Source of the DNA: Sediminivirga luteola
GTDB lineage: Bacteria > Actinomycetota > Actinomycetes > Actinomycetales > Brevibacteriaceae
DNA length: 64,000 nucleotides
NCBI RefSeq assembly: GCF_014639315.1
Contig: NZ_BMFY01000005.1
Coordinates: forward strand, 186,001 to 250,000
Direction of reading: 5' to 3'
The position numbers were made by a program, and so were the translations under genes. This document shows positions 50,954 to 64,000 of this stretch, in pieces; the first letter of the stretch is position 1, and every line of letters starts with the position of its first letter. The notes beneath the pieces were generated by a model. The model was not told where the DNA came from, did not search any database, and worked only from the letters and a program-made list of their open reading frames with translations.

Positions 50954-51628
50954 TCAGTCGACCAGCCGGATGTCAAAGAACTTGGCGAAGTCGTCGGGAT
51001 CGTACGAAGCGGACATCGGGACCGGACCGATGTACCCGACGGTGGCCGAGCCCACACCCGGCGCGCTGCAGATGACTTCCCAGCTGATCACGGTAGGGCT
51101 TTTGGGAGGCCATATAACGTTCTGCTTCCGGCAGATGATCCCCGCCTTTGCGCGGACTTCGGCTGTCGCGGTTGCTTCGGCCTGAGGGGTACCGACCAGC
51201 CGGTCCGCGGTGCCGGAAACGTCAGTTTTCTCTGCCAGGGTGTCCACGGTGACCCGGTGCACCGATGTCCCGGACGGGAATTGCCGGTAGCTCGTCACGC
51301 TGGAGTTGTCGTTCTGCGCGGCGTATTCGTTCGCGGCTCCGCGTCCCGCGTTCATGCTCGGCGTGGAAGACGACGGGCCACGCGCCGGGCCCCAGTCGAC
51401 CGGGGATTTCGGAGGCGGCTGGGTTCGCAGCCACCACCCGATCCAGCTGTATCTCATCTCTGTGGCGGCGGCGAGGGCGGCGGCGTCGGCGGCCTTCTGG
51501 GCTTTGCCGCGGGAATCGCTTGCCTGGCCGAAGATCATCAGGCCGACGCCGACCATCAGGACCACGAGAGCAAGCGAGACGACGGCCAGGGACATCTGAC
51601 CGTCGTCTCGCTTGAGCGGGGATCGCAT
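50954..51628 (-). CDS. TadG-like pilus assembly / minor pseudopilin protein
   Basis: 224 residues from ATG 51628 (a GTG at 51631 directly precedes it). N-terminus KRDDGQMSLAVVSLALVVLM resembles TadE/TadG pseudopilins: a Gly before a hydrophobic helix, though Glu at +5 is replaced by Ala, so prepilin-peptidase processing is less certain. KAQKAADAAALAAATEMRYS is the typical TadG helix. The external region has two Cys (GIICRKQ...VICSAPG). Ends the tad locus, 45 bases after flp. Probably assists secretion or initiation of the Flp pilus. Confidence 0.75.
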   Translation of the reverse strand: MRSPLKRDDGQMSLAVVSLALVVLMVGVGLMIFGQASDSRGKAQKAADAAALAAATEMRYSWIGWWLRTQPPPKSPVDWGPARGPSSSTPSMNAGRGAANEYAAQNDNSSVTSYRQFPSGTSVHRVTVDTLAEKTDVSGTADRLVGTPQAEATATAEVRAKAGIICRKQNVIWPPKSPTVISWEVICSAPGVGSATVGYIGPVPMSASYDPDDFAKFFDIRLVD

Positions 51629-51673
51629 CACGGGGATCTCAAGGGGTGGGGATGATGTGCGTGAGGGACTCGA

Positions 51674-51910
51674 TCAGCCTGCGGTCTTGCCGAAGATGCT
51701 GTCGATGACGCCCTGGATGCCGGTGCTGATCGCGTTGTTACCGCTGGTGCTGAACCAGGTGACCAGACCGGCGATGATGACGGTGATGACCACGGCGATG
51801 CCGACGTACTCGATGGTGCCCTGACCGGCCTCGCGACGCTCCTGCAGCGCGGTGGAGACGGCCTGGACGTTCTCGTCGATGCGGTTCTTCATCTTGAGCA
51901 GCTGGACCAT
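51674..51910 (-). CDS. flp: Flp-type major pilin
   Basis: 78 residues from ATG 51910 (GGAAG upstream). Type IVb Flp prepilin: hydrophilic leader of 29 residues ending in Gly29, then QGTIEYVGIAVVITVIIAGL with Glu34 at position +5, the class signature. The mature pilin is about 49 residues, typical of Flp (about 50). Leader is longer than usual and contains a helical segment (NVQAVSTALQERR). It follows the two-component genes by 120 bases and may have its own promoter for high expression. Confidence 0.88.
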   Translation of the reverse strand: MVQLLKMKNRIDENVQAVSTALQERREAGQGTIEYVGIAVVITVIIAGLVTWFSTSGNNAISTGIQGVIDSIFGKTAG

Positions 51911-52032
51911 TGTTCTACTTCCTTTACGTTTCGAAGGGGAGCTTGCGATCACCACGATGCCAGCGCCGGCCAGGCCGGACGAGGGCACCTGGGCCCATCA
52001 CCAGGCCCAATCGCGGGAGTGGGCCCGCAGGC

Positions 52033-52839
52033 CTATGTCCGGCTCCGGAACCAGACGCTGACGGCCTCCGCTCGGGACGTCACCGCCATCTTGGCGAAGA
52101 TGCGGTTGACGTGGTTCTTCACCGTTTTCTCGCTCAGGAACAGACGTTCGGCGATCTCACCATTGGCCAGGCCGTCGGCGATGAGCCCCATGACCTCGGC
52201 CTCGCGGGTACTCAGGCCGAAGGGGGAAGAACCACGCGGGGGCAGTTCGGTGACGGCGGTGACCTGGTGGGGTTCACCGGCGAGCGCCACTCCGGGTGCA
52301 CCGGCGCCCTCGGGGACCGGCGCGCCACCCGGTAGCCGCGCACTGTGCTGTGCCCCTGTTCCGCCGGGGGCTTGACCGCCGGACGCGGCGAGCTGCACGG
52401 CCGGCGGAGATGCAGGAGCTGCGGCCGCAAGCCCGCTGAGCACGGCGGATGAGGCGCTGGGCGACATGAGCATGGAGCCGGCCATCACCGAGCGCAGCGC
52501 CTGGGAGAGGTATTCCACTTCCAGCTCGCTGTAGACCACATAGCCCCTGGCCCCCGCCTGGACGGCGGCGGTCACGATCTCGGCCTCCTCGCTGTGGGTG
52601 AGCATCACGACGGCACAGCCCGGAGAGATGAGGCGGGCCGCCTCGATGCCGTTCATCTCCGGCATGCGCACGTCCAGCAGGCAGACATCCGGGGACAGCT
52701 CGGCGGCCATGTCCACGGCCTGGCGGCCGTTCTCGGCGGCGCCGACGAGTTCCACATCGGGCGTGTTCGTCAGGATCTGCTCCAGGCCGAGACGGACGAC
52801 GCTATTGTCATCGGCGATCAGCACGCGCAGGGGCGTCAT
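52033..52839 (-). CDS. LuxR-type (NarL family) response regulator
   Basis: 268 residues from ATG 52839. Receiver domain 1-115 with acidic pair DD in LIADDNSVVR, phospho-acceptor Asp in VCLLDVRMPEMNG, Thr in VVMLTHSEEAE and the terminal Lys position replaced (YVVYSELEVEYL rather than LxK). A 75-residue Ala/Pro/Gly-rich linker follows, longer than usual, then a LuxR helix-turn-helix (LSTREAEVMGLIADGLANGEIAERLFLSEKTVKNHVNRI). Overlaps the kinase gene by 32 bases. Probably controls flp or the tad locus. Confidence 0.9.
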   Translation of the reverse strand: MTPLRVLIADDNSVVRLGLEQILTNTPDVELVGAAENGRQAVDMAAELSPDVCLLDVRMPEMNGIEAARLISPGCAVVMLTHSEEAEIVTAAVQAGARGYVVYSELEVEYLSQALRSVMAGSMLMSPSASSAVLSGLAAAAPASPPAVQLAASGGQAPGGTGAQHSARLPGGAPVPEGAGAPGVALAGEPHQVTAVTELPPRGSSPFGLSTREAEVMGLIADGLANGEIAERLFLSEKTVKNHVNRIFAKMAVTSRAEAVSVWFRSRT

Positions 52840-53998
52840 GCGTTTCCTCCTCGGAGGCGATGGGGACTGAGAGGAGTACCCGGGTACCCGAGCCCTCCTC
52901 GGAATCAAGGGTCAGGGTGCCGCCGATCTCCTCGGCGCGCTCCCGCATGCCGGCCAGCCCGTAGTGCCCCGGCTTGCGGCGGCGCCGCAGCCGGAATCCG
53001 GCGCCGTCATCGGCGATCTCCAGACGCAGCCAGCCGCCTTCACAGCGGGCCGTGCACCTGATCTCCTCGGCGCCGGAATGCTTGGCGGCGTTCACCAGCG
53101 CTTCCTCGGCGACCTTCACCGCGGTGTAGCGCACATCCGCCGGCAGCCGGCAGCAACCGGCGGTCTCCAGGCGGACCCGGACCGGGTGGAAGGCCTGAAG
53201 CTCGGCGGCGATGTTCTCCAGCGCGCGCTCCAGCGGCGGATTGGAGGCGCTGCGCAGATCGGTCAGGAGCGTCCTGGACTCGCGGATGGCCTGCTGCGCA
53301 GATTCGCTGATGCTCCTTGCGCCCTCCGCGGGCCCGCCGGCCATCGCGAGCGCCTTCGCCTGCAGGTCGATCCCGACCAGCGTCTTCACCAGGGAATCGT
53401 GAAGCTCCCGGGCGATCCGTGAGCGTTCCTCGCCCAGGGCGGCATCGCCGGCGGCGTTCCGCACGGCTTCCATCGAGGCGTTCACCCTGTCCTGCAATGC
53501 ACGCATGGAGCCGCCGACATAGGCGAGCGCGGCGAAGAGCATGAGCGCGCCGAGCACCGCCGTGGCCCCGGCGGGACCCGGCAGCGTCTCCATCACCGCC
53601 CGGTACACCTGGACGGCGGCGTAGCCGGCGCCCAGCAGCGCTGTCAGCAGCACCCGGCCCACCGCGTCGAAGAACAGCCCGATCAGCAGCGCGGTCGAGC
53701 CCAGGTAGGCCAGATAGGCTCCGTGCGCGGAGGTGCTGGCGAAGATCAGCAGCGCGACGATGATGTCCACGCCCATGATCGCCGGATGCCGGGTGATGAG
53801 CGGGGCCAGCCGATGCCATCCCAGCAGGAGGACCAGAGAGCCGAGCATGGTGGCGCCCAGCAGGATGAGCTCCAGAACGCCCGGGTGGCGGGGCCAGCTG
53901 AGCACCACCGGGTAGGCACAGAGCAGCCGGAGGATCAGCGCGATCTTCCCGCACTGCACCAGGACGTAGCCCGCCTTGGGCGGCGCGAGCCGCCTCAT
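52808..53998 (-). CDS. NarL-type sensor histidine kinase within tad locus
   Basis: 396 residues. Six hydrophobic segments in residues 20-165 form a membrane sensor with almost no extracytoplasmic loops, so it likely senses something in or near the membrane. The HisKA_3 domain has the phospho-accepting His in SRIARELHDSLVKTL; the HATPase has VAEEALVNAAKHSGA (N box), EIADDGAGFRL (G1) and GLAGMRERAEEIGGTL (G2). Its ATG overlaps the tadC stop (ATGA), and its 3' end overlaps the response-regulator gene by 32 bases, so kinase and regulator levels are tied to pilus-machine expression. Confidence 0.9.
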   Translation of the reverse strand: MRRLAPPKAGYVLVQCGKIALILRLLCAYPVVLSWPRHPGVLELILLGATMLGSLVLLLGWHRLAPLITRHPAIMGVDIIVALLIFASTSAHGAYLAYLGSTALLIGLFFDAVGRVLLTALLGAGYAAVQVYRAVMETLPGPAGATAVLGALMLFAALAYVGGSMRALQDRVNASMEAVRNAAGDAALGEERSRIARELHDSLVKTLVGIDLQAKALAMAGGPAEGARSISESAQQAIRESRTLLTDLRSASNPPLERALENIAAELQAFHPVRVRLETAGCCRLPADVRYTAVKVAEEALVNAAKHSGAEEIRCTARCEGGWLRLEIADDGAGFRLRRRRKPGHYGLAGMRERAEEIGGTLTLDSEEGSGTRVLLSVPIASEEETHDAPARADRR

Positions 53999-54897
53999 GG
54001 CGCGCTCCCGAACAGCTCGCCGAAGTCCAGTCCGGCGACGAAGTACATGCTCACGATGATGAGCACCATGGTGCCGGGCACCATCACGATGGTGACCACG
54101 CCGGCGATCTTGGGGGAGGCCTTCGACGCTTCCTGGCGTGCCTTCTGGGCCCGTGCCCGGCGCATGTCCAGGGCGATCTGCTCCAGCGCGTCGACCAGCG
54201 GCGACCCGAGCTCCTCCGCCTGCAGCATGGAGGTGATGAAGGCATCCATCGACGGGGACTGCGTGCGTTCCCGGAGCGCCCGGAACGCCTCGTAGCGGGA
54301 AGTGCCGACGTCCATCTGCCGCATCGCGGTGCGCATCTCCTCGGCCAGCGGTCCCTCGGTCCGTTCGGTGACCCTTTGCAGCGCACCACGGAACGAAAGG
54401 CCCGCGGAGACGGTGACGGCGAGGATGTCGAGGAAGTCCGGAAGGGCGTCCTCGATGGCCGCCTGTCGTTTGCGGCCACCTGAGATGAGCGCCAGATCGG
54501 GGACGAAGAACCCGATGGCGAGCAGCAGGAGAGGCAGATACGGTGACTGCAGCATCAGCCCCAGACCGATGGCGCCCAGACCGCAGATGAGCAGCAGCCG
54601 GGCTTTCATGGCGAAGAAGTCGCCGATGGTGGGGAACTGCGGATCCTGGGCGTACAGGACCTGGCGCGCGATGAGGTCCCGGTAGCCGGGGCCGGCCAGA
54701 CCGGCAACCTCGGGCCCGAAGCGGCGTCCGAACCTGGTCAGCAGGCTTTCCCGGCGGCGGCGCTGTGCCGAGTCCTTGATCAGCGCACGGTCCTCCTGCG
54801 CCAGATGCCCCAGGGGATCGGAACGGACCAGGACGAAGCCGCGGATCGCGAAGAGCAGGATCAACGCTGCGACCAGGCCGAAGAGCAGTGCCGCCAT
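53995..54897 (-). CDS. tadC: Type II/IV secretion inner-membrane protein TadC
   Basis: 300 residues from ATG 54897. GspF-fold platform protein: AIEDALPDFLDILAVTVSAGLSFRGALQRV, the cytoplasmic EEMRTAMRQMDVGTSRYEAFRALRERTQS, SMLQAEELGSPLVDALEQIA, and a last helix ending GLDFGELFG. About four membrane segments. Works with TadB as the membrane platform driven by TadA. Start overlaps the tadB stop by one base (TGATG). Confidence 0.92.
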   Translation of the reverse strand: MAALLFGLVAALILLFAIRGFVLVRSDPLGHLAQEDRALIKDSAQRRRRESLLTRFGRRFGPEVAGLAGPGYRDLIARQVLYAQDPQFPTIGDFFAMKARLLLICGLGAIGLGLMLQSPYLPLLLLAIGFFVPDLALISGGRKRQAAIEDALPDFLDILAVTVSAGLSFRGALQRVTERTEGPLAEEMRTAMRQMDVGTSRYEAFRALRERTQSPSMDAFITSMLQAEELGSPLVDALEQIALDMRRARAQKARQEASKASPKIAGVVTIVMVPGTMVLIIVSMYFVAGLDFGELFGSAP

Positions 54898-55826
54898 CAG
54901 ATCTTCACCCGCGTCATCCGCCCGATGAGCACCAGCCCGATCAGATAGCACACCGCGGTGAAGACCAGACCGATCTGCCCCAACACGGTGCTGGTCAGGT
55001 CGTAGAGGAGTCCCGGGGAGATCGCGTTGAGCATCAACACGATACCGACCCCGAAGCCGACCACCAGATAGCCGGTGTAGCTGGACTGCGTCATGAGGGT
55101 CTTCACCTCGCGGGCGCTCTCCTTGCGGTCCTCCAGGGCGCCCGCCATGCCGCGCAGCGCGGAGATGAGCGAGCCACCCGAGCGCTGGGAGATCACGAGC
55201 GTGCCCACCAGGACGCTGAGGTCCCGTCCGGGGACCCGCTGTTCCAGCCGCTCCAGGGCGACGTCGATGGGCGTGCCGATATTGAGCTCGTGGTTCAGCA
55301 GGGCCAGTTCCCGGCCCGCTGGATCTGACAGTTCAGTGGCCGCGATCTTCAGCGCGGTCCGGATGGACAGGCCGGCGTTCGTCGCATTGGCCAGGATGCG
55401 GGCCAGTTCCGGCAGCTGGGCCAGGAAGAGCCGGTGCTGCCGCTCCCTGAGCTTGCGCAGCACGATCAGCATGCCCCAGGCCACGCCGAAGGCGAGCGCC
55501 GCGGCGTAGAACCAGGTGATCTGCGTCAGGGCGATCAGGAAGACCAGGACGACGACGAGCAGGCCCGCCAGGGCGTATTCCACCGCGTAGACGGAGCGCA
55601 GATTCGCCTCGGTGAGCGACGTGGCCAGCCAACGGCCGAGCGGAAGGCGCTGGAAGGCACGGTCCACCGGCCGGATGACGGCGCCCCGGAAGCTGCCGCG
55701 CAGGCCACCGGACTCGGAGCGCACGATCGCGGCCTGCTCGGCGGAGCCGGCGGTGAAGAGCAGGAACCCGACCACCGCGACGACCAGCACGCCGGCCAGC
55801 AGCAGGAGGAGCAGCTCCGGGCTCAT
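54897..55826 (-). CDS. tadB: Type II/IV secretion inner-membrane protein TadB
   Basis: 309 residues from ATG 55826. N-terminal membrane segment (LLLLLLAGVLVVAVVGFLLF), then GspF-domain motifs LAQLPELARILANATNAGLSIRTALKI, NHELNIGTPIDVALERLEQRVPGRDL, and VISQRSGGSLISALRGMAGALEDR; last helix LGQIGLVFTAVCYLIGLVLI. Pairs with TadC. Start overlaps the tadA stop by one base. Slightly longer than tadC product, as usual. Confidence 0.92.
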   Translation of the reverse strand: MSPELLLLLLAGVLVVAVVGFLLFTAGSAEQAAIVRSESGGLRGSFRGAVIRPVDRAFQRLPLGRWLATSLTEANLRSVYAVEYALAGLLVVVLVFLIALTQITWFYAAALAFGVAWGMLIVLRKLRERQHRLFLAQLPELARILANATNAGLSIRTALKIAATELSDPAGRELALLNHELNIGTPIDVALERLEQRVPGRDLSVLVGTLVISQRSGGSLISALRGMAGALEDRKESAREVKTLMTQSSYTGYLVVGFGVGIVLMLNAISPGLLYDLTSTVLGQIGLVFTAVCYLIGLVLIGRMTRVKI

Positions 55827-57229
55827 CAGGCCACTCCCGGCTGCCGGCAGGAAGCGCCGGCCTCCACGGGGATGTGCCGCGGCAGGGGGTGACCTGCCAG
55901 CCACAGCCGGTCGGCCAGAACCGCCGGGACCTCGTACTGCCGGACCCTGCCGCGTACGACGCGGTCCGGTCCCGGCGGTTCCTGCTCGAAGCGCATCAGC
56001 GGACGCAGGGTGAACTCTTCGCGCCGCTTCGAGGTCACCGTCGCGATCTCCGTCACCCGGCGTGAACCATCGGCGCCGCGGGTGAGCTGGACGATCAGGT
56101 CCACGGCGCTGTTGATCTGGTCGCGCAGCGCCTCGTACGGCACTTTCAGCTCGCTCATGCTCGCCAGGGTCTCCAGGCGGGAGACGGCGTCCTCGGTGCT
56201 GTTCGCGTGCACCGTCACGAGGGAGCCGTCATGACCGGTGTTCATGGCCTGGAGCATGTCCAGGGTCTCCCCGCCGCGGACCTCGCCGACGATGATCCGG
56301 TCCGGGCGCATGCGGAGGCTGTTGCGCACCAGGTCGCGGATCGTGACCTGGCCTTTGCCCTCGATGTTCGGCGGACGGGACTCCAGCCGGATCACATGCG
56401 GCTGCTGGAGCTGCAGCTCCGCTGAGTCCTCGATGGTGACGATGCGGTCCCGGTCGGGGATCTGCCCGGAGAGAGCGTTGAGCAGGGTCGTCTTACCGGT
56501 GCCGGTACCGCCGGAGACGACGATGTTCAGGCGCGCGCGGACGCAGGCGACCAGGAGTTCGGCGGTGGCCGCGTCGAAGCTGCCCTTGCCGACCAGATCC
56601 TGCATGGTGAACGGCGTGGGGAAGCGGCGGATGGTCAGCGCGGCGCCGTCCAGGGCGAGCGGCGGGACGATGACGTTGACGCGCTCTCCGGTGGGCAGCC
56701 GGGCGTCGACCATGGGGGAGGACTCGTCGACGCGGCGGTTGACCCCGGCGACGATCCGGTCGATCGTCTGCATCAGCTGATCGTTGCTGGAGAACCCGTA
56801 CTCGAGCTTCTCCAGCTTGCCGGCGCGCTCGACGAAGATGTCGTCCGGTCCGTTGACCATGATCTCGGTGACGGACTGGTCGGCGAGCAGGGGCTCCAGG
56901 ATGCCCAGGCCGAGGGCTTCGTCGACGACCCGGCGGATGATGTTCTGCCGTTCCCGGGTGGAGAGCACGGGGCCCTGGCGGGAGATGAGGTGGCTCATCA
57001 CCCGTTCGAGCCGGACCCGCTGCTGGGTCGGGTCGAGCTTGGAGAGCTCGTCGAGGTCGATCTCGTCCAGCAGCAGCTTGCGGTAGTCCGCGGCGGCGCG
57101 TTCGGCGGCGCTGACCGGCTGGTTCGCGGTGGTGGCCGGCCGTGGCGCGCGCCCGTTCCCGGACGGCGCCTCGGGGGCGGGAGCGCCCTGGGTCAGGCGG
57201 TGGCTTTCGACTCTGCGGAGCAGCGGCAT
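55826..57229 (-). CDS. tadA: TadA/CpaF-type secretion ATPase
   Basis: 467 residues. Hexameric ATPase that drives Flp pilus assembly. Walker [12 protein letters not shown] in mid-protein, Walker B/Asp box [17 protein letters not shown], His boxes in [13 protein letters not shown], and the N-terminal CpaF domain with [22 protein letters not shown] and [21 protein letters not shown]. The last 30 residues are unusual ([20 protein letters not shown]) and overlap the upstream region of tadB. Start overlaps the tadE stop (TGATG). Confidence 0.95.
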
Positions 57230-57612
57230 CAGCGGACCTCGGTCTGCGGCATCGTCGCGGAGCGGGAGACGGACATCGGCGGCATCAGCTCGGTGAGCCA
57301 GCCGATCGCGAACATGGGCACCTGGACGCGGGCCTCGCAGGTGACGTCGCTGCTCCTGTTCGTGCAGCGGACGCTGGAGCCCGCGCGCAGCGAGGAGGAC
57401 AGCGCGGCCAGTCCCTCGGCCTGCCCGCTGCCGGTGGAGAGGGTCTCGGCCCGGGCGGCGTTCCGAGCGGCGGAGTTCGCCTGGCTCAGCGCGTGCATGG
57501 CCAGCAGACCCTGGAGCGCGATGAGCAGCATCACCAGGACGATCCCGATGGTGCCGACGAACTCGATGCTGATGGATCCGCGCTCGCGCGTGGTCCTGCG
57601 AAATGCGCTCAT
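57229..57612 (-). CDS. tadE: TadE-like pseudopilin
   Basis: 127 residues. Short basic leader MSAFRRTTRERG ends in Gly12, followed by SISIEFVGTIGIVLVMLLIA with Glu17 at +5, matching prepilin-peptidase sites. The hydrophobic helix is followed by HALSQANSAARNAARAETLS, the usual TadE amphipathic part, and a small external domain with two Cys (RCTNRSSDVTCEA) likely in a disulfide. Overlaps the upstream fusion gene by four bases (ATGA). Acts as a minor subunit for Flp pili. Confidence 0.85.
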   Translation of the reverse strand: MSAFRRTTRERGSISIEFVGTIGIVLVMLLIALQGLLAMHALSQANSAARNAARAETLSTGSGQAEGLAALSSSLRAGSSVRCTNRSSDVTCEARVQVPMFAIGWLTELMPPMSVSRSATMPQTEVR

Positions 57613-59246
57613 GGTTCCCTCACGACTCCTGCGCTGGCGGGGATCTTGATGGTGAAGTCCTCGGTGAACTTCACCAGCATGGGCGTGTCGAGGGTGACGC
57701 TCACGCGGTCGCCGCTGTGCTGGACGGACATGCCGTCCCGCCAGGCGCCGGGCGTCCGGTCCCGGGCCGCCGCCTCGGCGGATTTGCCCACGGCGGCGGC
57801 CCGGGCGCCCTCCGCCGCCGAATGCGAGGCGAACACCCAGGTGGCGCCAGTGAGCAGAAGCTGGAAGGCGATGACGGCCAGCGCCAGGAACAGCGTCACC
57901 AGCCCGACGAACTCGATGCTCGACTGACCGCGTTCACCGCCAGGTGTTCCCGCGCCGCTGAGCGCCGGGGTCTCCTCCGGCGCCGGGCCGGCCGCGGCGG
58001 CTTTGTCCTTCTTGCTCTTCTTGCTGCCGCGTGCGGGCTTGGTCCGCGTGCTGCGGCGCTTGCGGGGGCCATCGGCGAGCGACTCCGGGGGCACGATGTC
58101 CAGCTCGCGGCCGAGCTGCTGAACGCGCTGGGACCATTCCGGTCCCGCGGCGAGGGGATCGCGTCGGTTGACCGCCTGCTCCAGGGGCCGGTCCATCCGA
58201 GGGATGACCGCCCGGGCGGCGGAGAGGCCCACGATCTTCTTGGCCGCTTCGGGCTGGATGTCCGAGCGCTTGTCGACGGCGTTGAGGATGACCTGCACAT
58301 GCTCGGACCGCCGGGCGCCGATGCGCTCCCACAGGGCGGTGAGGCGCCGTACCCCGCGCAGGGCCAGGACATTGGCCTGGGTGACCACGCAGACCTCGTC
58401 CGCCATTTCCGCCGCGGTGGCGTTCGCCTCGCCCATCACGGAGCCGATGTCGACGATGACGGTGTCGAAGCGGGAGCGCAGCATGCCGAGGATCTTCTTC
58501 GCGGCGGCCTCCGTGACGAGTTCGCCCCGCTCGCCCTCCTGCGGTCCGAACAGCACGGAGAAGCCGCCGGGATGCTCGAACAGCACGTCGGAGAGGAACC
58601 GCGGCGAGAGCTCGTCGACGACCGGGAGCAGATCGGTGATATCGCGTTTGCGGGGTGCGTCCAGGAGGATCGACTGGTCCGGTTTCTGCAGGTCCAGATC
58701 CACCAGCACGACGCGGCGCCCGGTGGTCCGCGCCGATTCCAGCGCCAGGTGCAGCGCCAGGGTGGACGATCCCGCACCGCCCTTGGCGGAGGCGAGGACG
58801 ACCATCTTGCCCCCGGCGTCGGAGGTCTCCTCGTCGAGGGTGCGCCGCACGGCCCGCCGCAGGGAACTGCCCCAGGTGGTCGCGCTCTGGACCCGCGAGG
58901 CGACGTTCTCGAAGTTGAGCGGATACTCGATCACGCCGCGGGCGCCGCTGTCCAGGGCGGTCGCGTAGTCGCCCCGGGTGGGGTTGTCGACGACGGCGAG
59001 GACCGCGATGGCGGGGTAGCGCCCGGAGACCTCCGCCGAGAGGTCCCACATCGGCATCGGCGAGCTGGACTGGTCGATGACCAGGACGTCCGTGTCCGCC
59101 TCGCCGTACTGGGCCAGGCCGGCCAGCAGCGCCTGCGTGGAGGCGTACTGCCGTGTCACTTCCACTCCCGCGTCGGAGAGCGCCTGGCGGATCTCCCAGC
59201 CGCGCTGTTCCTCGGCGCAGCAGAGCACAGCCTTGGTCATGGTCAT
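57609..59246 (-). CDS. Fusion of CpaE/TadZ ATPase with C-terminal TadE-type pseudopilin
   Basis: 545 residues. Residues 1-130 are a receiver-like pseudo-domain (TKAVLCCAEEQRGWEIRQAL); 147-385 are a MinD/ParA-type ATPase with deviant Walker A KGGAGSST at 155-162, VVLVDLDLQKPDQSILLD and TVIVDIGSVMGEANAT. After a Lys/Arg-rich linker (about 395-430) the chain continues into GERGQSSIEFVGLVTLFLAL: Gly440 then Glu445 at +5, followed by the AAEGARAAAVGKS TadE helix and a short beta domain to residue 545. TadZ normally stands alone and locates the Tad machine at a cell pole; here it carries a membrane pseudopilin. No stop or frameshift is visible in the join. Start is coupled to cpaB (ATGA at 59243). 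Confidence 0.85.
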   Translation of the reverse strand: MTMTKAVLCCAEEQRGWEIRQALSDAGVEVTRQYASTQALLAGLAQYGEADTDVLVIDQSSSPMPMWDLSAEVSGRYPAIAVLAVVDNPTRGDYATALDSGARGVIEYPLNFENVASRVQSATTWGSSLRRAVRRTLDEETSDAGGKMVVLASAKGGAGSSTLALHLALESARTTGRRVVLVDLDLQKPDQSILLDAPRKRDITDLLPVVDELSPRFLSDVLFEHPGGFSVLFGPQEGERGELVTEAAAKKILGMLRSRFDTVIVDIGSVMGEANATAAEMADEVCVVTQANVLALRGVRRLTALWERIGARRSEHVQVILNAVDKRSDIQPEAAKKIVGLSAARAVIPRMDRPLEQAVNRRDPLAAGPEWSQRVQQLGRELDIVPPESLADGPRKRRSTRTKPARGSKKSKKDKAAAAGPAPEETPALSGAGTPGGERGQSSIEFVGLVTLFLALAVIAFQLLLTGATWVFASHSAAEGARAAAVGKSAEAAARDRTPGAWRDGMSVQHSGDRVSVTLDTPMLVKFTEDFTIKIPASAGVVREP

Positions 59247-60097
59247 CCGTCCTCGTTCTCGTCGGTCTCGCCGCCGGACTCGTCACTGTCCTCGCCGCTG
59301 TCGCCGGGTACGGTCTCCTCCGGCGGGCTGTTGAAGTTGGGGCCCAGGTCCGGGTCCTGGAAGGACTTGTCGTTCTCGTCGAACGCGGTGCCGGTCTCGT
59401 TGTTGCCCGACCGGATGATGCGCATGGAGATGGCGAAGGATTCGCCGTAGGCCAGCCGGTTGGCGTCGGCCACCGAGACCGCGAAGGTCACCGGCACGAC
59501 CATCGAGTCCTCGCCTCCGCCCTCGGTGGCGGCGCCGGCGGCCGCACCGGCGGGAACCGGCTGGCCGACCGAGACGACGAGGGCGTTCTCGACCAGGATG
59601 CCGGCCACGTTGTAGGGGATCTCGGCCCGGCGGTAGGAGGTGTCACCGACCTCCGGGCCGCCGCGGTCCCGGGCGAAGGAGGCGACGACGTCGACGATGT
59701 CGCCAGGCTGGACCCGGCCGTTGATGCCCATATCGCCTTCGAAGTTGACCGAGATCTCCCGCTCGCCGTCGGCGAGGGAGGAGGCCGCCTCGATCATGTC
59801 GGACTGCAGCCACGAGCCCGCCGTGATGTGGGTGGAGGCTTTCTGACCGGCCAGATCGTCCCGGTTGGTGATCATCTGGGCGTTCAGGTACTTGTCCGGG
59901 ATCTCTGCGGCCTCGACCTTGTCGAAGTCGATCGCCTCGTGCACGGCGATGTCCTCGGTGGCCACGTAGACCTCCGTGGTGGGGCCCACCTCGGCGCGGA
60001 CGGAGCCGACGTAGGCCACGACGCCGAGGAACACCGCGATGGCGCCGACCGCGGCGATGATCAGCGTGACCACGCCGCGCAGCTGCTTGGGATTCAC
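59243..60097 (-). CDS. cpaB: Flp pilus assembly protein CpaB (SAF domain)
   Basis: 284 residues from GTG 60097 with GGAGG seven bases upstream; the stop of the preceding gene overlaps it (GTGA). One N-terminal membrane segment (GVVTLIIAAVGAIAVFLGVV), then a SAF domain: TTEVYVATEDIAVHEAIDFDKVEA, LAGQKASTHITAGSWLQSDMI, and the RcpC/CpaB domain with NGRVQPGDIVDVVASF, GILVENALVVSVGQPV and TFAVSVADANRLAYGESF. The C-terminal 45 residues are highly acidic (GEDSDESGGETDENEDG). In Gram-negatives it joins the secretin; there is no secretin here, so its role in a Gram-positive wall is less clear. Confidence 0.9.
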   Translation of the reverse strand: MNPKQLRGVVTLIIAAVGAIAVFLGVVAYVGSVRAEVGPTTEVYVATEDIAVHEAIDFDKVEAAEIPDKYLNAQMITNRDDLAGQKASTHITAGSWLQSDMIEAASSLADGEREISVNFEGDMGINGRVQPGDIVDVVASFARDRGGPEVGDTSYRRAEIPYNVAGILVENALVVSVGQPVPAGAAAGAATEGGGEDSMVVPVTFAVSVADANRLAYGESFAISMRIIRSGNNETGTAFDENDKSFQDPDLGPNFNSPPEETVPGDSGEDSDESGGETDENEDG

Positions 60098-60876
60098 GTA
60101 CTTGCCTCCTGGGGCGGAGCCGGCGGCGTGCACAGCACGGCCACGGGGATATCAGCGGGAACGGGCGTCTCATCGCCGGGGTGCTTCAGCGCGACGCTCA
60201 GATCGGCCGGCGCGAGCACCAGCTGGGCGCAGCGGGGCGAACCCCACCAGCCGGGATCCGGATTGGGCCGGGCGAGGACCTGGGCGGGGCGCAGATGCCC
60301 GATCAGGGCCTCGGTGGCGGCGCCGATGCGGGATCCCGCCGGGCCCTCGTCGGAGGAGGGCGCGAGCGCGGCAACGGCGCCGGGGGAGGCCAGCGCGATC
60401 CGGTCCAGGGCCTTGCCGGGCTTCTTCGGGGAGTAGGCGTGCACGCCGCCACCGAGCTCGGCCAGGTAGGTGCCGCCGGGAATCCAGCTGCGCGCGTGGG
60501 TGAGCAGTGGCGTGCGCGGTTCGTTCATGGACACGACCGTGTCGGTGACGGTGAAGCACCGCATCTGCGACTCCAGCGCCGCCAGGGCCGGCAGCAGCCG
60601 GTGCGGAGGGAGCGTGGTCAGCAGGGGCTGGGCCATCTCCGTCAGGATCGCCGCGCCCAAGGGGCTCAGATCCGTGACGTGGAAGGCGACCAGCGTCTCT
60701 TCGCGGGCGGCCCGGGCCTGGTAGACCAGCCTGCGGTGCTCAGCGTGTTCCCGGCGCGGGCTGATCAGCACGGCCCAGGCGTCGTCGGGCAGGCCGTGCA
60801 CGACCGTGAGGGCGTCCTCCAGCGTGGTGGGGACGGTTCTCACGACCGCAATGGCCGATTCTGCGCGTGTCGCCAT
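60094..60876 (-). CDS. First gene of tad operon, function unknown
   Basis: 260 residues from ATG 60876. No signal peptide or membrane helix. Recognisable only as a soluble alpha/beta-looking protein: TVPTTLEDALTVVHGLPDDA, AAREETLVAFHVTDLSPLGA, TVTDTVVSMNEPRTPLLTHA, and a C-terminal ADIPVAVLCTPPAP. The pattern of short hydrophobic strands could be a degenerate receiver or ATPase-like domain, but I assign none. Its position ahead of cpaB and its GTGA overlap make it a pilus-locus component by context. Confidence 0.65.
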   Translation of the reverse strand: MATRAESAIAVVRTVPTTLEDALTVVHGLPDDAWAVLISPRREHAEHRRLVYQARAAREETLVAFHVTDLSPLGAAILTEMAQPLLTTLPPHRLLPALAALESQMRCFTVTDTVVSMNEPRTPLLTHARSWIPGGTYLAELGGGVHAYSPKKPGKALDRIALASPGAVAALAPSSDEGPAGSRIGAATEALIGHLRPAQVLARPNPDPGWWGSPRCAQLVLAPADLSVALKHPGDETPVPADIPVAVLCTPPAPPQEAST

Positions 60877-60999
60877 CGGATGCGTCCTGGGTGGGGTACT
60901 TGAGGGGACAAGGGGTGCTCTCAAGACGGCGCCGTGGCCGGGCGCGGGGGAGACCCTGGGTACGGGCGCGTCCGGTGCCGATGACCGTCTCGTCGACCA

Positions 61000-61101: not shown

Positions 61102-62979
61102 ATGGCAGCATTTCCCCCTCCCCAGAATGCCCAGTCCCCGAAAGAACCGCACGACGCCGTCGCCCCCGCCAACCCGCGGATGCGGCCCCTCCGGCGACGG
61201 TTCCTGAGCCGGCATGGCGCCCTGCCGGCGATGGTACTGGCCGGCGTACTCGCCCTGGCCGGATGCACGGGAGTGGACGCCAACGGGAACGAGGGCGCGG
61301 ACGCTGACGGGCAGCCGCAGGAGACCAGCGCCCAGGCGGAGCCGGCGATCGTCGAGGAAGACGGTTTCTGGCGCGCCAACACCCTGCCGGAACCGCTGGC
61401 CGAAGCGGTCTTCACCCTCCCCTCGGCGCAGCTGGACGGCGAGGTCGCCAGCGCGCAGCTGCAGGTGCTCTCCCTGGACAGCGACGGCGAGTTCGCGCGG
61501 ATGGTGCTCGCCTGGCTGCCGCCGGCCGATGGCGCCTTCCTGGGTTCCGAGCGGCTCGCCGCCCATGAGGCCATCGCCAGCGGCGTACCGTTCGTGCGGC
61601 TCGTCGACACCGAGAACGGCGAGCTGATCGAACCGCTCCGGTCCGAGCACGGCGGGAACTTCGACGCCTCGGCGGCGCCTCAGGTGCAGGAGGCCGGGGA
61701 CAGTGACGCGGTCAATCGCGCCGGCTGCATCTGCTCCTACTCCGCCGGTAGCGACGAGGCCGCGGCAGGGCAGCCGGATCGGACCGAGCTGATCTTCCTC
61801 GACTTCCCCGCCCCGCAGAGCGCGGCAGTGGAGGTCTTCGCCGGGGAATGGCATGAGCCGCTTCCGGACGTGCCGGTCAGCCAGAGCCAGCCGTTCGAGT
61901 TCCCCGATGACGGGCTCTCGGGCTTCACCATGGTGGATGTGTCCAGCGACCGTCCCGGTGAGGTCTACGGCGGTGGTGCCCGGTACGCCCGCACCACTGC
62001 GCTGACGGGCCGCTCCGAGAGCCTGACCGGCGTGAGCACTGCCCGCAGCGGTGAGACGCAGGAGGTCAGCCTGCCCTCGGACGTGCTGTTCGAGTTCGAT
62101 TCGGACGAACTGGACTCGGATGCGCAGCGGATCGTCGGCGAGGTGGCGCAGAAGCTCAACGCCGAGGCCGCCGGGCAGACCGTGGTGATCGAGGGGCACA
62201 CGGACAACCAGGGCGCGGAGGACTACAACCAGGACCTCTCCGAGCGCCGTGCGCAGTCGGTGGCCGAGGAGATCTCCGGTCAGCTGGACGACGGCATCAC
62301 AGTGGAGACCGAGGGGCACGGCATGTCCCGTCCGCTCGTGCCGAACACCGATGCCGCCGGTGAGGCGATCCCGGAGAATCAGCAGCGGAACCGCCGCGTC
62401 GGCTTCCGCTACACGGCCGTGGAAGACTCCGGCAACCAGATCGACCTCGGCTTCGAGGGGCTCGAGGAGCTTCCAGAGGCCGAGGAGACCGAGACCGCCG
62501 AGGGTGCCCAGGCGTCGTTCCTGCTAGCCGCACCCGAGGGAGACTCCTCGGGCACCGAGGTCAGGTTCGATGTCCTGGACGCCTCGTCCGACGGTGAGCA
62601 CGGAACCCTCCGGGTCGCCTTCGCCGATCCTGACGGCGGGACGGCCACCGAGGTGTTCCAGGGCAACCCGCTGGAGCAGGACAGCGCCCACTTCGGCCGG
62701 AACCCCTTCGGATTCACCTCCGCACCGGGGATGAACAACATCAGCATCGTGGACGTGTCCGGGGAGACCATGTACTACCCCGTCAACGCGGGCGCCGAAG
62801 GCTGCCTGTGCACCGAGGTCGCCGGCACGGGGCGCGATCTGTTCGCCGAGGGCTCGCCGATGTTCGCCCGCTTCCAGCTGCCCGAGGCAGTGGAGGGGCC
62901 GCTGGTCCTGCGCGTGCCCGCCGCCGGGCAGTTCGAGCTTCCCGAAAGCGTGGTGCAGCAGCTCACCGGCGGCCGGTGA
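61102..62979 (+). CDS. Lipoprotein with OmpA domain between two copies of a CxC domain
   Basis: 625 residues. Lipobox LALAGC with Cys55 after a hydrophobic stretch; the cytoplasmic N-region is long (36 residues), and in-frame ATG 61180 would give a shorter leader, but the -10 box favours 61102. Residues about 75-310: a domain with LQVLSLDSDGEFARMVLAWL and GCICSYSAGSD. Residues about 320-437: OmpA/MotB peptidoglycan-binding domain (VLFEFDSDELDSDAQRIVGE, VIEGHTDNQGAEDYNQDLSE, RRAQSVAEE, NRRVGFRY). Residues about 470-620: a second, diverged copy of the first domain (FDVLDASSDGEHGTLRVAFA, GCLCTEVAG). Probably tethers to the wall. Function unknown; divergent from the tad locus. Confidence 0.85.
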   Translation: MAAFPPPQNAQSPKEPHDAVAPANPRMRPLRRRFLSRHGALPAMVLAGVLALAGCTGVDANGNEGADADGQPQETSAQAEPAIVEEDGFWRANTLPEPLAEAVFTLPSAQLDGEVASAQLQVLSLDSDGEFARMVLAWLPPADGAFLGSERLAAHEAIASGVPFVRLVDTENGELIEPLRSEHGGNFDASAAPQVQEAGDSDAVNRAGCICSYSAGSDEAAAGQPDRTELIFLDFPAPQSAAVEVFAGEWHEPLPDVPVSQSQPFEFPDDGLSGFTMVDVSSDRPGEVYGGGARYARTTALTGRSESLTGVSTARSGETQEVSLPSDVLFEFDSDELDSDAQRIVGEVAQKLNAEAAGQTVVIEGHTDNQGAEDYNQDLSERRAQSVAEEISGQLDDGITVETEGHGMSRPLVPNTDAAGEAIPENQQRNRRVGFRYTAVEDSGNQIDLGFEGLEELPEAEETETAEGAQASFLLAAPEGDSSGTEVRFDVLDASSDGEHGTLRVAFADPDGGTATEVFQGNPLEQDSAHFGRNPFGFTSAPGMNNISIVDVSGETMYYPVNAGAEGCLCTEVAGTGRDLFAEGSPMFARFQLPEAVEGPLVLRVPAAGQFELPESVVQQLTGGR

Positions 62980-63019
62980 ACGGCGTGCCGCGTCAGCCGT
63001 GCCCCAGCCGGGGCGGACG

Positions 63020-64000
63020 ATGAGCATCCTCCGCTTCCGCGGTGCCCTCGCAGCGCTGCTGGCGACGGCGTTCCTGCTCTCCGCCTGCGGTGCCGCCGAT
63101 GAGGAGAACCAGGCGGAGGGAACACGGGAGCCGGTGCCGCTGACCGCGCCCCCGGCCGATCCGCGGATGCAGGAGACGCAAGGCTTCTGGCGCGCCAGCA
63201 CGCTTCCCGAGCCGCTCGCTGCCGCTGAGTTCTCCCTGCCGAGCGAGGCCGCCGGCGGTGAGAGCGCCTCGGCCCGGCTGGAGGTGCTGTCCCTGGACTC
63301 CGACGGCGAGTTCGCCCGGCTCGTGCTCGCCTGGCTGCCGCCGGTGGCCGAGCCGGCGCTGGGGGCGCAGACGCTGACGGCGCAGAGCGCCCGCGCCGGC
63401 GGGGTGCCCTGGGTCCGGCTGGTGGACACGAGGACCGCGCAGGTGCTCGAGCCGCTCCAGGGGGAGTCCGGCTCCTTCGACCACGAGGCCCCGCCGCAGG
63501 TGCGTGATGCCGCCGCGGCGGAGACCACCCGCGGCGCCTGCATCTGCTCCTACGCCCTGGGCGAGGACGCATCCCGCTCGGGGAAGCCGGAACGCACCGA
63601 GCTGATCTTCGTGGATTTCCCGGCACCGGAGGGCGGCCGGGTCGATGTGTTCGCCGGGGAGTGGCACGAGCCGCTCTCAGATGTGCCCATCAGCACGGAC
63701 GAGCCCTTCATGCTGCCGGACGACGGGCTCGCGGGTTTCCGGATGCTCAGTGCCGCCGCGCGCCAGCCCTCACCGGTCTACGGCTCCGGTGCCCGTTACG
63801 CCCGCACCGAGCCGCTGAGATCCCGCACCGACCATCCCGGCGGCCTCATCGTCACCGGGCACGGCCGGGTGCGGGAGGTACACATCCCGGCGGGAGCGCT
63901 CTTCGGCCAGGACTCGTATGAACTGGACGCCGACGACGACCTCCTCGGCGGGCTGGCCGGCATCCTCGACGCGCAGGCGGCCGGCGGTACCACCGCCGTC
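63020..64000 (+). CDS. Paralogous CxC-domain lipoprotein (partial)
   Basis: 327 codons visible from ATG 63020, cut by the right edge. Lipobox LLSAC, Cys23, with a normal short signal peptide. The domain after it matches the first part of the preceding gene: GFWRASTLPEPLAAAEFSLP, LEVLSLDSDGEFARLVLAWL, GACICSYALGEDAS, RTELIFVDFPAP, DVFAGEWHEPLSDVP, YGSGARYARTEPL. The last visible residues (VHIPAGALFGQDSYELDADD) correspond to the beginning of the OmpA domain of the neighbour, with weaker matches to the consensus. A tandem duplication that has diverged. 41-base gap; likely one operon. Confidence 0.85.
   Translation, partial: MSILRFRGALAALLATAFLLSACGAADEENQAEGTREPVPLTAPPADPRMQETQGFWRASTLPEPLAAAEFSLPSEAAGGESASARLEVLSLDSDGEFARLVLAWLPPVAEPALGAQTLTAQSARAGGVPWVRLVDTRTAQVLEPLQGESGSFDHEAPPQVRDAAAAETTRGACICSYALGEDASRSGKPERTELIFVDFPAPEGGRVDVFAGEWHEPLSDVPISTDEPFMLPDDGLAGFRMLSAAARQPSPVYGSGARYARTEPLRSRTDHPGGLIVTGHGRVREVHIPAGALFGQDSYELDADDDLLGGLAGILDAQAAGGTTAV

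Follow-up and report, generated by a model that had tools for sequence, protein, structure and literature searches.

What becomes of a protein that carries a TadZ/CpaE ATPase and a TadE-type pilin on one chain, with a predicted prepilin-peptidase site at the join? Such a protein is encoded in the 64,000-nucleotide stretch of Sediminivirga luteola DNA analysed here (the window, to whose positions coordinates refer unless a contig or locus is named). We describe its architecture and locus, its distribution as fused and split orthologs, and the evidence bearing on whether the chain is cut.

Architecture of the fused protein and its locus

The fused tadZ::tadE gene lies at 57609..59246 on the minus strand, a strand left unstated in the original prediction; reverse-strand translation gives 545 residues followed by a stop, bearing out the single uninterrupted frame claimed for these coordinates. 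Both ends overlap the neighbouring gene by 4 nt (ATGA), with cpaB upstream and a second tadE downstream. The chain opens with a TadZ/CpaE portion of receiver-like and MinD-like domains, runs through a basic, disordered linker and ends in a TadE-type pilin. An AlphaFold2 model, using 16 homologues as input, defines the domain borders. Residues 1–125 (58872..59246, minus strand, as for all tad-locus features below) form an atypical receiver-like domain with profile matches to the CpaE N-terminal structures 4dad and 4dn6, and the MinD/ParA-like ATPase domain occupies approximately 145–385 (58092..58814; Pfam AAA_31, CbiA, ParA and MipZ). The linker (386–440; 57927..58091) is basic, mostly predicted disordered and poorly conserved, closing on the tripeptide ERG, and pLDDT falls below 50 at 392–442 of the model. 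Gly440 (57927..57929) is the predicted −1 residue of the prepilin-peptidase site and Glu445 (57912..57914) its +5 residue, both found at the join of ATPase and pilin as originally proposed. The pilin domain (441–545; 57612..57926) is modelled as a long helix, starting at 442, and three strands; PF07811 is matched in its orthologs.

Three features place the N-terminal half in the TadZ/CpaE family: the receiver-like N-terminal domain, an ATPase domain of the MinD/ParA type whose Walker A departs from the standard, and a tad locus that also encodes CpaF. For the ATPase part, the top Foldseek matches are 3ea0 (C. tepidum, a ParA-family ATPase) and 3fkq (from E. rectale, known as TadZ). The half lies outside the Ssd family, scoring 49.1 bits with TIGR03815 (NCBIfam cut-off 154.45). 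A deviant Walker A had been predicted at 155–162, and the Walker-A-like motif KGGAGSST is indeed located there (58761..58784) with the signature Lys155 kept, but the P-loop lysine position is Ser160. Across the 75 orthologs classified below, window included, this position is T in 40, A in 26, S in 7 and V in 2. In a more distant TadZ class KGGxGK is kept in 20 of 20 rows, all of them unfused. The C. tepidum protein 3ea0 has Gly at the same position, so loss of the lysine is not peculiar to fusions; the idea that fusion caused it was rejected, the split orthologs also being without the lysine.

The pilin half has the features of a TadE minor pilin (Gly−1, Glu+5 and a hydrophobic helix after them) and, modelled alone with AlphaFold2, reaches a mean pLDDT of 94.9. 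Its predicted TadE identity rests on its orthologs. A pilin-domain alignment (A2) covers 45 of the 75 loci, and 38 of its 45 members match PF07811 at E ≤ 0.1; the window's domain is not one of the 38. Searched alone against Pfam at the same threshold, that domain has no match; a whole-genome PF07811 search lists the neighbouring TadE and not the fused domain, and NCBIfam TadE_Rv3655c scores it at 21.1 bits, below the cut-off of 40. The TadE-type pseudopilin proposed for 440–545 is thus upheld by the PF07811 matches of orthologs and not by a Pfam match of its own. Foldseek found no solved fold for the domain at E ≤ 0.001, and the best VIA-align hit (Z 7.2, to pantothenate synthetases) is graded ambiguous by the tool, giving no convincing solved fold.

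The surrounding genes form a tad locus. Upstream are CpaB/RcpC (59243..60133; Pfam and NCBIfam searches) and a gene with no Pfam or NCBIfam match (60094..60924), whose profile matches lie at the same place in Nesterenkonia and Brevibacterium fused loci. Downstream follow the second, separate TadE minor pilin (57229..57612; PF07811; site RERG/SISIE, the slash marking the predicted cut), the CpaF/TadA motor ATPase (55826..57229; PF00437; best NCBIfam match to the TadA family, just under cut-off), TadB-type (54897..55904) and TadC-type (53995..54951) platform proteins, both PF00482, a histidine kinase (52808..53998), a LuxR-type response regulator (52033..52908), a Flp pilin (51674..51988; site REAG/QGTIEY, assigned by motif and position, with no Pfam match) and a TadG-like protein (50954..51631; PF13400). 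The Gly12/Glu17 pair given earlier for the adjacent TadE was confirmed, and Gly29/Glu34 of Flp holds if numbering begins at an internal, inferred start (MVQLLKMK). The TadG-like protein, at RDDG/QMSLA, has acid-x-Gly as in the pilins, and its +5 residue is not Glu.

Divergent from the tad operon are two tandem lipoprotein-like genes, alike in sequence: 61102-62979, with an OmpA domain, and 62999-64000, which continues past the window end. The genome's prepilin-peptidase gene is at C5:255746-256060, ~10.5 kb from the fused gene. Shortly before it is a gene for a 515-aa protein (L101:3040-4587; G000:C5:253040-254587) with a Flp-like stretch, AGSLEYVG, near its start and ~400 further residues without a Pfam match; long ORFs related to it (27–33% identity over part) occur near other fused loci (L103:15314-16843 and L105:2779-4245).

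Distribution of fused and split orthologs

The first 16 fused homologues comprised the window, four Nesterenkonia, seven Brevibacterium or members carrying its genus code, and four more distant members of the order, at 30–68% identity. Surveys then covered 99 genomes of the order, 98 of the class, 101 of a family with large genomes, code f37 (54 with a match), and 100 of the phylum. We examined the junction at 76 loci with the fused kind of TadZ and classified 75, the remaining one (L093) ending at a contig end. These divide into 48 fused loci and 27 with TadZ and TadE as adjacent genes, counts that follow sampling, 54 of the 75 coming from f37. Two of the 48 share a species (L103 and L040), and L094 is the same locus as L035. 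Three loci from outside the class, found in the phylum survey (L224–L226), are all fused, bringing the total to 51 of 78. Within f37, 29 of 54 loci are fused, and genus g118 has the fusion in all 21 genomes that had a match. The original prediction called for homologues sharing both fusion and site, and each of the 48 fused orthologs keeps the equivalents of Gly440 and Glu445; separate genes do occur in relatives, yet the fused reading is not unique to this genome. A sequencing or frame error is ruled out, since the frame is kept in all 48 across linkers of 17–233 residues (median 29).

Among plasmids, 95 records match the query, none over 80% of it in one place; in viral contigs, four loci match parts of the ATPase domain only.

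Where the genes are split, TadE resembles a small prepilin: it has a leader of its own, mostly short, and carries the same site. In 25 of 27 split loci no more than 20 nt separate the tadZ stop from the nearest candidate tadE start, so the genes already adjoin and may be translationally coupled; the start overlaps the stop by 4 nt in 14 of 27, and tadE is in the 4-nt-overlap frame in 17 of 27. At L140, L148, L172, L173 and L183 the two genes share a frame and tadZ ends in TGA. Stop-codon readthrough was considered for the split loci and rejected: tadE is in the tadZ frame in 5 of 27, no excess over one in three. Fused or split, a second TadE match is present downstream in 74 of 75 loci.

Gene order is stable around the fusion. 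All 15 distinct fused loci with long flanks read cpaB-tadZ::tadE-tadE2-cpaF-tadB-tadC-kinase; of three further fused loci, two have the kinase and L141 does not. In the other kind of tad locus, which has the TadZ with KGGxGK, tadZ directly adjoins cpaF and none is fused. One genome (G133) has both kinds (L095 and L092), and the two are separated with full support in a careful 45-row tree.

The fused/split label changes repeatedly on the TadZ phylogeny. Setting fused against all other rows of a quick 79-row tree requires 5 changes, 4 of them forced by well-supported branches, in a tree that carries long-branch warnings and only 4 rows from the distant TadZ class. The 45-row tree, from which a short match (L090) was excluded, gives 2 changes with only 5 split rows. 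With the site constant throughout, repeated change on the larger tree indicates that fused and split forms have given way to one another without loss of the site. Locally, the fusion is uniform: the clade of the window, Nesterenkonia and Brevibacterium is fused in 13 of 13 rows of the 79-row tree, the 12 other loci being the nearest relatives found. The window's TadZ itself clusters with Nesterenkonia, of another family, with full support in the 45-row tree, despite the Brevibacterium family code of this genome; horizontal transfer of the tad locus may account for this grouping.

The predicted cleavage site and the fate of the chain

An alignment of the 75 loci has Gly at −1 and Glu at +5 without exception (48/48 fused and 27/27 split). 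Position −3 is Asp or Glu in all 75, and positions −9 to −4 are variable and Arg-rich. The resulting acid-x-Gly is common to the window's second TadE (RERG), Flp (REAG) and TadG (RDDG). Outside the class, L224–L226 keep Gly−1 and Glu+5, with an acid at −3 in one of three. The Gly/Glu pair, invariant also in 16 of 16 of the first homologues, is therefore not there by chance. The linker before it changes freely: two Brevibacterium senegalense genomes differ there by 15 nonsynonymous and 8 synonymous codons, against 2 and 22 before the linker and 1 and 3 in the pilin domain. A site fixed at the end of an otherwise drifting linker is best explained by recognition by the peptidase; pilin packing could also account for the conserved Glu+5.

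Each of the 30 genomes searched for it, 26 with a fused and 4 with a split locus, has a Peptidase_A24 gene; in 19 of them one lies no more than 21 kb from the locus, on its contig. According to the title of one study, TadV is reportedly required for TadE and TadF maturation. TadV is described as cutting Flp prepilins after Gly, a step essential for pilus assembly (PMC4322843), and prepilins as inserting with the leader in the cytoplasm and being cut there (PMC10191384); a cytoplasmic TadZ as leader fits that topology. The original prediction had set a cut and an uncut product side by side, with 1:1 synthesis either way. The fusion and the 1:1 coding follow from the sequence, and the invariant site, the repeated switches of state and the peptidase gene in 30 of 30 genomes lean, we infer, towards the cut form.

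On these comparisons, peptidase cutting after Gly440 is probably the main fate, freeing TadZ and mature TadE from one product. The TadZ part would be synthesised first. The pilin helix would then insert with its N-terminus cytoplasmic, leaving TadZ to hang in the cytoplasm on the flexible basic linker, and a TadV/CpaA-type prepilin peptidase would cut after Gly440. Released TadZ would take up its normal role at the motor, and TadE, now 105 residues long, would join the pilus base or initiation complex, its free N-terminus available for Glu+5. Coming from one chain, TadE and TadZ would be produced one for one and at a single place on the membrane. Several points count against cutting: we know of no prepilin leader approaching 440 residues with folded domains, those known being far shorter; the window's pilin domain by itself lacks a Pfam match and a convincing solved fold; two of L224–L226 are without the −3 acid; and the switches of state rest on a tree with long-branch warnings, the 45-row tree needing only 2. 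TadE-type proteins of M. luteus are reported as needed for surface pili and as not found in sheared pili (PMC4322843).

An account that overlaps with cutting as the main fate is that fusion brings no mechanistic gain: coupled neighbours would have lost a stop codon, drift would keep the joined form, and the peptidase would restore two proteins. The adjacency of the split genes suits it, but the fusion has been retained deeply, throughout the window-Nesterenkonia-Brevibacterium clade and the matching g118 genomes, and we consider this account possible, if somewhat unlikely.

Conservation of the site would also be compatible with partial or regulated cleavage. Slow or regulated cutting, with uncut TadZ-TadE marking and nucleating the machine and a later cut freeing TadZ as a checkpoint, fits all of the data, both domains and the site being conserved. 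Against it, the repeated switching between the two forms implies that the lineages concerned, at least, can do without a covalent stage, and we think such a checkpoint unlikely. Equally doubtful is a scheme in which a cytoplasmic ATPase would be freed by the prepilin peptidase serving as polyprotein protease: its own TadE would hold TadZ at the nascent base until the cut, and release would report minor-pilin insertion, a 1:1 assembly checkpoint.

If the protein stayed uncut, the pilin helix would permanently anchor TadZ at the base of the machine, replacing the CpaE-type amphipathic helix. Caulobacter CpaE is proposed to be membrane-bound through its C-terminal amphipathic helix, an end that a covalent anchor would serve as well, and six CpaE dimers have been modelled around CpaF in that organism (PMC13170226). 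The presence of the fusion in 51 of 78 loci would agree with an anchor. However, split orthologs are without one, and with a second TadE downstream in nearly every locus an anchor could shed the site and leave the locus still supplied with TadE. Gly−1 is nonetheless invariant, and to our knowledge has no use in an uncut protein; a permanent anchor is accordingly an improbable outcome. That TadE is made separately, by initiation inside the fused gene, is very improbable: the linker of some members does contain in-frame starts, but between the TadZ domain and the Gly an in-frame ATG, GTG or TTG is absent from 35 of 48 fused copies, so internal initiation does not explain the fixed site, and an SD-like sequence precedes an in-frame start in only 1 of 48.

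Relation to known systems and implications

The fused protein resembles described TadZ/CpaE proteins (E. rectale 3fkq and Caulobacter CpaE) in its receiver-like and MinD-like domains, non-standard Walker A and proximity to CpaF; unlike these, which are separate proteins, it has a pilin on the same chain. It shares with the TadE/TadF minor pilins of A. actinomycetemcomitans and M. luteus a Gly/xxxxGlu site, one hydrophobic helix and a small C-terminal part. The leaders of those minor pilins are short, whereas the leader side here is a 440-residue ATPase. As in the modular pilins PilB and PilC of S. sanguinis, an extra domain is joined to a pilin; theirs is adhesive, grafted on the pilin and displayed by the pilus (PMC10191384). 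Modular pilins have the extra domain after the pilin helix, outside the cell; in the fused protein the helix follows the additional domains, which take the leader side. Two further fusions likewise join parts of one machine or adjacent tad genes: PulL of the type II secretion system (T2SS), a PilM-PilN fusion (PMC10191384) with no pilin at the join, and, in the tad-2 cluster of M. luteus, a fusion of TadB to TadC (PMC4322843), which unites other parts and no prepilin.

We recognised no description of a TadZ-TadE fusion in the open-licence PubMed Central literature, a scope that leaves subscription papers mostly outside; the fusion may already have been noticed in database annotation. The tad machinery itself is known; this is a new form of it, and a widespread one. 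If the chain is cut, prepilin peptidase can take leaders that are several hundred residues long and include folded domains, and tools that look for N-terminal prepilin signals can miss pilins inside longer proteins such as this one. The fusion also bears on the unsettled question of what directs TadZ/CpaE to the membrane and to the base of the pilus: one-chain synthesis would bring TadZ and TadE to the base together, and the persistence of a covalent TadZ-TadE unit in many actinobacteria suggests a shared site and moment of action for the two.
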